The notes beneath the pieces are model-generated. The model was given only the letters and a program-made list of their open reading frames with translations, did not search any database and was not told the origin of the DNA. Of a stretch of DNA of 64,000 nt, positions 5,757-63,047 are shown in pieces. A program made the position numbers and the translations under genes. Numbering within the stretch: the stretch's first letter is position 1; each line of letters starts with the position of its first letter. The stretch is from Pseudoblastomonas marina (GTDB lineage Bacteria > Pseudomonadota > Alphaproteobacteria > Sphingomonadales > Sphingomonadaceae). The stretch covers positions 806,001 through 870,000 of the forward strand of contig NZ_BMID01000001.1 of assembly GCF_014641655.1 (NCBI RefSeq). The letters are read 5' to 3'.

Positions 5757-5831
5757 TGGTGCCCAGGGGCGGAGTCGAACCACCGACACGACGATTTTCA
5801 GTCGTCTGCTCTACCACTGAGCTACCCGGGC
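5757..5831 (-). tRNA. tRNA-Phe (anticodon GAA)
   Basis: Read on the minus strand, this is a 75-base cloverleaf. The acceptor stem GCCCGGG pairs with CCTGGGC (one G-U pair), the D arm contains AGCTCAGTGGTAGAGC, the anticodon loop reads CTGAAAA with anticodon GAA, and the T loop is TTCGACT. The 3' CCA is encoded. It lies just downstream of yacG, in the order infA-maf-RNase E/G-yacG-tRNA-Phe, and may be co-transcribed with that cluster. It is separated by only seven bases from the end of the convergent oxidoreductase gene. Confidence 0.95.
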
Positions 5832-40652: not shown

Positions 40653-40734
40653 GCTGCCGCCTTAGCCCAGCTAAGTTAACATTGCAGCGTCTCTTGTGCG
40701 CTGCGGAAGGCGGCGCTAATCGGGGCCCAGCGTC

Positions 40735-40920
40735 ATAGGTTGTCCCGCGCCAAGGAAGACTTGGGGCCGGACCGAAGAGGGAAGGAGGTGCGAAACCTCC
40801 GCTGCCCCCGCAACTGTGACCGGGGAGGCCGTTCCCGAGATGCCACTGCCGCGTGCGCCTGCACCGGTGGGAAGGCGGGAAAGGCCGGCGATCCGGGAGC
40901 CAGGAGACCTGCCTGCGACG
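40735..40920 (+). promoter_or_regulatory. Cobalamin riboswitch
   Basis: The conserved blocks of the AdoCbl-type riboswitch occur in order. GGAAGGAGGTGCGAAACCTCC is approximated at 40789-40800 and its neighbours (GGTGCGAAACCTCCGCTGCC), then CCCGCAACTGTGA, then GCCACTG, and the B12 box AGCCAGGAGACCTGCC at 40898-40913. It lies about 105 bases upstream of btuB on the same strand, so it should switch off the uptake operon when cobalamin is plentiful. Exact ends are approximate. Confidence 0.93.
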
Positions 40921-41022
40921 TGTCGTTCCGCGGCCGGGCGGGGTGTACCGGAAGCAGGCGAGAGCCGCGATCTTCGCGCGCTTTCCGTCATGAGCGATAT
41001 GTTCGCGAATGACGGAGGAATA

Positions 41023-60297: not shown

Positions 60298-60343
60298 CGG
60301 CTCGGGGGGAGAACGCGCGGGGAGGGCGCGCGGCGTGGGCGCG

Positions 60344-60880
60344 CTAGTCGACCAGCGCGAGCTCGACCAGGCCGTGGCCGCGCCCGACCAGGCCGAGTTC
60401 CTCGGCCGCGGCGCGCGAGACGTCGATGATCCGGCTGCCGTGGAACGGGCCGCGATCGTTGACCCGCACGACCACGCTCGCCCCGGTGCGCGGATTCGTG
60501 ACGCGCAGGCGGGTGCCGAAGGGCAGGGTGCGGTGCGCGGCGGTCATCGCGTACATGTCGAACGGCTCGCCGCTGGCGGTACGGCGCCCGTGGAACTTGC
60601 GCCCGTAATAGGAGGCGGTGCCGCTGCCGATCGCGGTCTCGTCCTCGACCACCTCGATCGGCGGGTCGATCTCGGTCACGTCGACCGCGCCGTCGGCGGG
60701 TTCGGGCGTGGTGTCGGGTTCGGGGACCGAGGGAAAGCTGTCGGCGAAGCTCGGCGGTACGTCCTGCACCACCGGTTCGGACACGGCGTCCTGCGACACC
60801 GCCGCCGAGCTCGACCAGGTGAGGGCGAGCATGGCGGCCAGCCAAGTGGCGCGGCGCAGGGGTTTGCGGGTCCCTTCCAT
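60344..60880 (-). CDS. rlpA: Septal ring lytic transglycosylase RlpA family
   Basis: A 178-residue protein with a signal peptide (ATWLAAMLALTWSSSAAVSQ), a Pro/Asp/Glu-rich linker, and a double-psi beta-barrel domain: GSGTASYYGRKFHGRRTASGEPFDMYAMTAAHRTLPFG and VNDRGPFHGSRIIDVSRAAAEELGL, the RlpA hallmark with the catalytic-site Asp and His. The SPOR domain of larger RlpA proteins is missing. RlpA cuts naked glycan strands at the division septum. ATG 60880 is chosen; the long open frame upstream lies in the non-coding region and is not part of the protein. Confidence 0.9.
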   Translation of the reverse strand: MEGTRKPLRRATWLAAMLALTWSSSAAVSQDAVSEPVVQDVPPSFADSFPSVPEPDTTPEPADGAVDVTEIDPPIEVVEDETAIGSGTASYYGRKFHGRRTASGEPFDMYAMTAAHRTLPFGTRLRVTNPRTGASVVVRVNDRGPFHGSRIIDVSRAAAEELGLVGRGHGLVELALVD

Positions 60881-61040
60881 CGTGGCCGGGTTATACAGCG
60901 CCGAACGGCTCAGGAGTCGCGATGTGCCACCGTTTTGCCGCAATTTGCCGTCGTCCGGTCGCGATTCCGGGCGGCAAAGAACGGGAAATTGCCGATCCGC
61001 CCCTCGAGAATCGCGGCGCCAGTGTGACTCGGGTCCGGAA

Positions 61041-61650
61041 TGACAAACGGGGCCGGCATTGCTGCCGACCCCGCTCTCGCCGACGTCTCGTTCCGGGGGG
61101 AACGCATACGCCGAAGCATGTTGCCCGTTGGCCGAAACCGCGGGGCTCGTGCGTCCGGCGCTCGCGCCGGGAACCGGTTCCGTCGGGCGGGGAGTTCCGG
61201 TCCACGAGCCTGAGGCTCGCTTTCCTTCACTGCCACCACCCGGCGGTTCCGAAGCCTTCACATCCGTAGCGGTCTCGCGATATCCGCGGTTCCGGCAATC
61301 CACGAGGGATTGCGTTTCACCCGACTTTTCCCTTCCGGTTCCGTCGGTGCCGAAGCACCCCGGTTTCCCGGAACTTGCGGTCTTCGCTCGGTTCGGCTCG
61401 CGCCTCCCTTTGCTCCGACCTCGCGTGACCGGATGATCCGGCCAAACCGTAACGAGCCACTCGCAGCATCTGCGGTTCGTCTTGATCAAACCCGAAGGTT
61501 CGTTCGCGACGTGTTTTCCGACGCTACCGCGGGCTCAGCCACGGTACCGGATGGTTTCAACGGAATTCCGCTTTCCTATCAAGCCTTTCGGCCTTCAAGT
61601 TCCGACGGGTTCCTCCGCCTTCCGATGACTTGAAACTGCGCCGGGAAAGC
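61041..61650 (-). ncRNA. Candidate large structured RNA of unknown class
   Basis: This 600-base stretch has no believable protein gene but many perfect stem-loops. Minus-strand examples (plus-strand coordinates): 61049-61072 (10 bp, GCAA loop), 61089-61104, 61155-61170, 61205-61219, 61295-61313 (7 bp), 61346-61359 (UUCG loop), 61358-61373 (GAAA loop), 61427-61443, 61487-61502 (UUCG loop), 61525-61546 and 61581-61594 (GAAA loop). Five of these contain base pairs that are G-U on the minus strand but A-C mismatches on the plus strand, which sets the direction of transcription. It is not tmRNA, RNase P, SRP or 6S RNA by their conserved motifs. Ends are approximate. Confidence 0.5.
61049..61072 (-). 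terminator. GC-rich terminator-like hairpin at the 3' end of the candidate RNA
   Basis: On the minus strand the stem is 10 base pairs (one G-U), with a GCAA loop, followed by GTTTGTCATT. The following T content is moderate. It ends the structured region and would separate it from rlpA, 170 bases further on. Confidence 0.55.
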
Positions 61651-61677
61651 GATTCGTTCAAGCTGTGCAAGCCCGAC

Positions 61678-61720
61678 TTATCGACATTCCACACTTTTGG
61701 CTGTGGACAACGGTGGATAA
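61678..61720. other. Cluster of DnaA-box-like 9-mers
   Basis: TTATCGACA (61678-61686), TGTGGACAA (61702-61710) and GGTGGATAA (61712-61720) each match the DnaA box TTATCCACA (or its complement TGTGGATAA) at eight of nine positions. TCCACA/TGTGGA inverted arms (61688-61693 and 61702-61707) lie in the same stretch. An AT-rich stretch (61751-61762) follows. They could bind DnaA at or near the promoter of the candidate RNA; an origin is not claimed. Confidence 0.45.
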
Positions 61721-61817
61721 GTAATGACAAGCGTGGATTGCATTTGGTGCAACAATATTATAAGTGCGCCGCCAATTCCGACATATTTGCCGAGTCGTGG
61801 TGAGTTCGATCCTGAAT

Positions 61818-63047
<1,230 letters not shown>

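Follow-up and report, generated by a model that had tools for sequence, protein, structure and literature searches.

Bacteria contain few large structured RNAs beyond those of ribosomes, RNase P and tmRNA, and several of these few have opened new biology, among them the OLE complexes and RNA nanocages. The closest described systems include the OLE RNA of Bacillota, a stand-alone, multi-domain RNA of about 600 nucleotides (nt), and ROOL and GOLLD, large ornate RNAs whose sequence is more variable than their structure (PMC12286853). Here we describe a new, fast-evolving family of large structured noncoding RNAs in the Sphingomonadaceae. It was found in a window of 64,000 nt from Pseudoblastomonas marina (contig NZ_BMID01000001.1, positions 806,001 to 870,000; the coordinates given below are those of this window), in the gap between argG and rlpA. 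A preliminary description had reported a gap of more than 900 bases without a convincing protein gene; the gap measures 937 nt, and reading of its open reading frames revealed none that convinces. The same description proposed a large structured RNA of unassigned class on the minus strand, a proposal borne out by covariation, by the lack of any Rfam match and by the lack of a conserved protein. The element is conserved and structured, lies on the minus strand and bears promoter and terminator motifs. The existence and strand of the RNA are well supported; the regulation of its promoter is deduced from motifs, and its molecular role is a guess.

The evidence that carries this conclusion is comparative, and is far stronger than the stability of a single sequence. 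Sixty-six relatives, with RNAs mostly of 430–600 nt, were aligned from the −10 hexamer to the terminator. Covariation was scored by a G-test with average-product correction, against null alignments in which the inferred substitutions were redistributed on the tree. In this first alignment the predicted structure accounted for 15 of the 20 column pairs with the highest scores, the best of all lying in domain 2 (Table 1), and no pair reached E = 0.05 across all column pairs; with 132 sequences the top-ranking pair attained E = 0.017 over all column pairs. Because the structure had been derived from the same data, it was tested out of sample. Applied to 69 other sequences, the structure obtained from 63 gave 82% standard pairs, and 12 of its 101 pairs were significant (E < 0.05, counted within the structure); the reverse test again gave 82% standard pairs, with 14 of 89 pairs significant. 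The sequences of both sets are related and come from a single alignment, from which near-identical ones had been removed beforehand. In slid controls, where partners were moved by 1–3 columns, standard pairs amounted to 31–41% and 0–1 pairs were significant. The comparison of homologous gaps that the preliminary description had proposed therefore finds compensatory changes whose significance is lost on sliding the structure. Consensus pairs contain 1535 G-U against 398 A-C cells, a ratio of about 4:1, which identifies the minus strand as the RNA strand and extends to the whole family an argument for direction first made from the G-U pairs of the single sequence. We regard the structured RNA as almost certainly real.

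The predicted minus-strand fold has an energy of −301.5 kcal/mol and a z-score of −5.5, against −1.7 for the plus strand (20 shuffles, with the strong terminal hairpin included), in agreement with the earlier statement that the stem-loops pair well on the minus strand. The RNAalifold consensus of the 66 relatives comprises five domains and a terminator, with hairpin loops that are mostly UUCG, GNRA, UAAC and CAAG. One hairpin most often has a UUCG loop (72 of 132 sequences), and the hairpin at the end of the RNA is capped by GCAA in 93 of the 132 sequences and by GCGA in 30, so that the UUCG and GNRA loops noticed in the single sequence recur across the family. Domains 1 and 2 combined span 174–201 nt in every relative but one. 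In the terminal hairpin the stem is of 13–14 base pairs (bp) with a GNRA cap; the hairpin and the following GTTTGTC are as first described, and the stem is longer than the 10 bp then assigned to it. Its core shows 100% standard pairs in the 66 relatives, with compensatory changes and a loop that also varies. Domain 3 is about twice the consensus length in the window genome (~190 nt against 95 alignment columns). Two subfamilies of the RNA, one with TGTCC and GTGACAGAACC and the other with ATGCC and GCGACATA, differ in domains 2 and 5 together, a possible sign of a contact beyond simple pairing. A TGTC/GACA pseudoknot between these domains was considered, but the co-variation of the columns follows the two subfamilies without restoring pairing, and the pseudoknot is therefore not claimed.

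Compared with its closest relative, the window genome shows insertions and deletions of single nucleotides and substitutions distributed 27/27/21 by codon phase, which argues that the region is not protein-coding; RNA lengths are evenly distributed modulo 3 among relatives. The covariance search with all Rfam models, also proposed at the outset, matched no known RNA class: Rfam 15 (4227 families, including RNase P, tmRNA, SRP, 6S, OLE, ROOL and GOLLD) gave no credible match over the RNA on either strand, a permissive search of 60300–62200 gave nothing credible, and at 26 loci with relatives there was no match over the RNA at the family cut-off or at a credible E-value. The conserved sequences of RNase P, tmRNA, SRP and 6S RNAs had been reported absent, consistent with these results and with a full-length RNase P RNA elsewhere in the genome (G000:C1:526512-526890, E = 1.7e-94). 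No description of the RNA was found in the open-access literature, a coverage that leaves out most subscription papers.

Within the family, 85 of 299 genomes, representing 34 of 96 genera, gave minus-strand matches, a few of the weakest being false, and a pattern for the 3' block was found in at least 118 stretches in named genomes. The listed matches with genus titles are Erythrobacteraceae (Erythrobacter, Porphyrobacter, Qipengyuania, Altererythrobacter, Aurantiacibacter, Croceicoccus, Pelagerythrobacter and others), and in about 100 Erythrobacteraceae genomes the relatives lie between argG and rlpA. Among the matches listed, argG is upstream on the same strand at 106 of 108 usable loci. At one of the two exceptions (L268) the available sequence extends upstream for only 811 nt; in the other, Pelagerythrobacter rhizovicinus (L282), the RNA is kept and argG does not occur within 2.6 kb upstream. 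Downstream, all of the 99 named Erythrobacteraceae genomes examined among those matches have rlpA on the same strand, at a distance from the terminator that ranges from ~130 to 600 nt or more. In divergent lineages, whose neighbors were read from open reading frames rather than by family search, the RNA still follows argG (with an additional gene between them in L141) and the next gene is unrelated to rlpA, being convergent in L051, L065, L071 and L143 and another same-strand gene in L076, L160, L164 and L166. One BLAST match taken as a candidate relative (L079, in G046) proved to be an iscS-like coding sequence.

The upstream block of the relatives contains TTATCCAC, TGTCCAC and an inverted GTGGATAA, all strongly conserved, and site III, degenerate in the window, reads GTGGATAA or GTGGAAAA in most of them. 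The start of the gene was placed from the −10 hexamer and its end at the terminator tail. The RNA does lie within 61041–61650, the interval first assigned to it, and its start is probably near 61626, with a promoter (about 61633–61720) that extends outside that interval. Between the −35 and −10 hexamers stands a GANTC site whose N, on the RNA strand, is only C (48 relatives) or A (9), so the opposite strand reads GAKTC in all 57. GcrA is reported to prefer YGAKTCK or YGAKTCG (PMC7987155); the GAKTC core of this extended motif occurs in the 57, and the flanking bases vary. GcrA was found in all eight genomes tested. Caulobacter promoters that have GANTC in the −35 to −10 interval belong to a cell-cycle class whose members share an activation time (PMC4287350), and cell-cycle control of the RNA promoter may reasonably be supposed from the sequence. 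A strict version of the promoter pattern was found in 5 of 399 genomes, all within the family, and is too strict to describe the distribution. Within RNA bodies of the aligned relatives GANTC is nearly absent (0.00027 per nt), and GAATC averages 0.05 per RNA, compared with 0.91 in shuffles.

Table 1. Features of the RNA locus and its flanking genes (window coordinates).
Feature	Position	Strand	Evidence
Structured RNA gene, ~585 nt	61041..61626	-	Covariation out of sample; ends conserved across 66 aligned relatives; no Rfam match
DnaA-box-like site I, TTATCCACC	61712..61720	-	Sequence; forward box in upstream block of 63/66 relatives
DnaA-box-like site II, TTGTCCACA	61702..61710	-	Sequence; TCCAC core in 64/66 relatives per column
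DnaA-box-like site III, inverted, TTATCGACA (one mismatch, degenerate)	61678..61686	+	Sequence; inverted box in 61/66 relatives
−35 hexamer TTGAAC, 17 nt from −10	61656..61661	-	CTTG in 56–66 of 66 relatives per column
GATTC (GANTC, CcrM methylation site; plus strand CGATTCG), between −35 and −10	61651..61655	+	57/66 relatives within 2 columns
−10 hexamer CAGTTT	61633..61638	-	CA and one downstream T invariant, 66/66
Domain 1: long-range stem and hairpin with UAAC, CAAG or GNRA loop	61547..61625	-	Consensus structure, covarying pairs
Domain 2: 8-bp closing stem and UUCG hairpin	61446..61545	-	Pairs 88-184, 90-182, 132-139
Domain 3, expanded here relative to relatives	61253..61443	-	Covarying stem
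Domain 4: stem with variable tip	61175..61251	-	Pairs 291-339, 311-320, 312-319
Domain 5: most conserved block (GCGAGCGCCGG) and variable covarying hairpin	61078..61172	-	Pairs 366-408, 424-438, 425-437
Terminal hairpin, GCAA loop, then GTTTGTC; likely intrinsic terminator	61044..61076	-	Covarying core stem
argG, upstream neighbor, same strand as RNA	61818..63047	-	Open reading frame
rlpA, downstream neighbor, same strand as RNA	60344..60880	-	Open reading frame

Elsewhere in the window, the Rfam 15 scan located a cobalamin riboswitch (113.5 bits, 40720–40930, plus strand) and a tRNA gene (5760–5831, minus strand).

Copies of the gene appear to exist at other loci. Weak model matches led to such copies in other genera (L161, L162, L165, L167, L169, L170 and L172), which were recognized by promoter and terminal hairpin, and BLAST with two of them returned many further loci, often through the box block alone. 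Sixteen of 20 fetched loci carry TTATCCAC, a GANTC site mostly 37–38 nt beyond it and, after ~300–560 nt, a 13–14 bp tetraloop hairpin; at loci found via the box block, neither GANTC nor hairpin had been a selection criterion. The terminal hairpin is typically AGTGGGGGC...GCCCCCATT, and in L308 the terminal stem is replaced outright. Two copies in tandem occur in genomes of genus g22 (L296, L297; G192 in L295), and each copy has its own terminator and its own promoter with box and GANTC site. The bodies of these copies are too diverged to align, so their probable homology to the window RNA, drawn from shared promoter, terminator and size, is less certain than that of the argG-linked group. Rfam gave nothing over the copies. 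At L309:1235-1414 (minus strand) there is a sub-threshold match to CC2171, a Caulobacter small RNA (39.3 bits, cut-off 75, E = 3.5e-5), just past the RNA gene terminator and on the opposite strand. Three weak matches of model R1 (L163, L168, L171) were rejected as protein-gene terminators. Searches of other families of the order and of other orders gave nothing convincing, with models that are weak (R1 and R2 incorporated only 18 and 6 base pairs), so that absence there is not proven.

Taken as a whole, the likely explanation is a stand-alone, replication-linked noncoding RNA of an undescribed family that acts as RNA. The minus strand would be transcribed from its own housekeeping-type promoter, with a start near 61626, and the transcript would end at the intrinsic terminator at 61076–61041, fold into about five domains plus terminator and act as RNA rather than as an mRNA leader. 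That the gene is an independent one we hold to be highly probable. A promoter with DnaA-box-like sites and a GANTC site between its −35 and −10 hexamers suggests that DnaA and the GcrA/CcrM system most likely tie expression to replication or to a cell-cycle stage, and replication-linked control appears moderately likely on this sequence evidence. The likeliest role would be a structural one exercised in trans, as a scaffold that binds protein or as an RNA that assembles with itself: sequence turnover is fast and fold, promoter and terminator persist, which favors scaffolding or self-assembly over a base-pairing regulator. A ribonucleoprotein (RNP) or architectural role is quite possible. A bolder version, which we put forward tentatively and with considerable doubt, is a new class of large architectural RNA, present throughout the family and timed to replication. 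DnaA, together with the methylation state that a passing replication fork leaves behind, would set its transcription, and the RNA would build an RNP or RNA-only particle required for the sphingomonad cell cycle.

Several points weigh against this explanation. The covariation test is our approximation of R-scape; when all column pairs are considered, a single one, the best, is significant, strong significance being confined to the proposed structure. With the terminal hairpin removed, the z-score of the window RNA is about −2.8 and that of relatives averages about −2, only moderately better than shuffles, so fold energy alone is insufficient for the case. Transcription of the gene and its cell-cycle timing are both inferred, and regulation by DnaA, GcrA or CcrM is proposed from sequence motifs. 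Moderate single-sequence z-scores, in GC-rich DNA that folds readily, could also suggest chance palindromes or the remains of a protein gene; set against the out-of-sample covariation, the strand asymmetry, the conserved promoter and terminator and the lack of a codon signal, this is extremely improbable.

The arrangement of the locus invites another interpretation, in which transcription of rlpA begins with this RNA as an extended 5' leader or attenuator and polymerase read-through is controlled by the terminal hairpin, for rlpA comes next on the same strand throughout the named Erythrobacteraceae and a terminator-like hairpin closes the RNA. Yet the downstream genes of divergent lineages are unrelated to rlpA and several are convergent, which argues that the RNA is not its leader; other genera carry the RNA at other loci, some as tandem pairs, and the spacing from terminator to rlpA varies severalfold. 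We consider a leader very unlikely. Were the functional element DNA, it would be a DnaA-box cluster for titration or reactivation, datA- or DARS-like, with the RNA secondary. The strong conservation of two direct and one inverted DnaA-box-like sites fits such a site, as does its position: the locus lies ~1.0–1.1 Mb from gidB in six genomes and the oriC of the family is placed at or near hemE (PMC4741004), which makes it very improbable that the cluster is the replication origin. However, selection on RNA structure is direct, the boxes stand immediately upstream of the promoter, and outside Erythrobacteraceae there are often one or two exact boxes and the RNA gene is still present; a DNA site is thus unlikely. 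A conventional trans-acting, base-pairing small RNA with a cell-cycle role akin to that of Caulobacter CcnA would suit the cell-cycle type of promoter, but the size and multi-domain paired architecture are unusual for such RNAs, the sequence evolves fast with structure kept, and CcnA itself is shorter and in oriC. We regard this alternative as doubtful, and prefer the stand-alone structural RNA. Such an RNA, kept across a large, well-cultured alphaproteobacterial family, is nevertheless missing from Rfam; its DnaA-type and CcrM-type promoter sites would link a large noncoding RNA to replication control, and culturable species (Erythrobacter longus, E. ramosus, Qipengyuania flava, Porphyrobacter) allow direct testing.

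CcnA of Caulobacter crescentus is likewise an alphaproteobacterial noncoding RNA with a cell-cycle-linked promoter, but it is of 182 nt, in oriC and CtrA-linked (PMC8959179), whereas the window RNA is of ~585 nt, far from gidB and preceded by DnaA and GANTC motifs. Like the CsrB/RsmZ sponges, it is a long structured RNA with many GGA motifs (~19 per RNA). These are only slightly in excess, at 19.3 per RNA against 16.2 in shuffles, and the CsrA protein was found in none of nine genomes in which positive controls were detected; a Csr sponge was rejected on both counts, the absence of CsrA arguing directly against it. With OLE RNA it shares size, stand-alone character and multi-domain structure, and differs in having no Rfam match, in its clade and neighbors, in its DnaA-box/GANTC promoter and in having no known protein partner. 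Unlike ROOL and GOLLD, which it resembles in being large and ornate and more variable in sequence than in structure, it has no Rfam match and is chromosomal and syntenic with argG; its 3' block had no exact match in viral contigs, where a virus link of the ROOL/GOLLD type would be sought. The window RNA therefore stands outside OLE, ROOL and GOLLD by covariance model, host or neighborhood, and has the attributes of a large ornate RNA: it is long and multi-domain, with a covariation-supported structure outside coding sequence.
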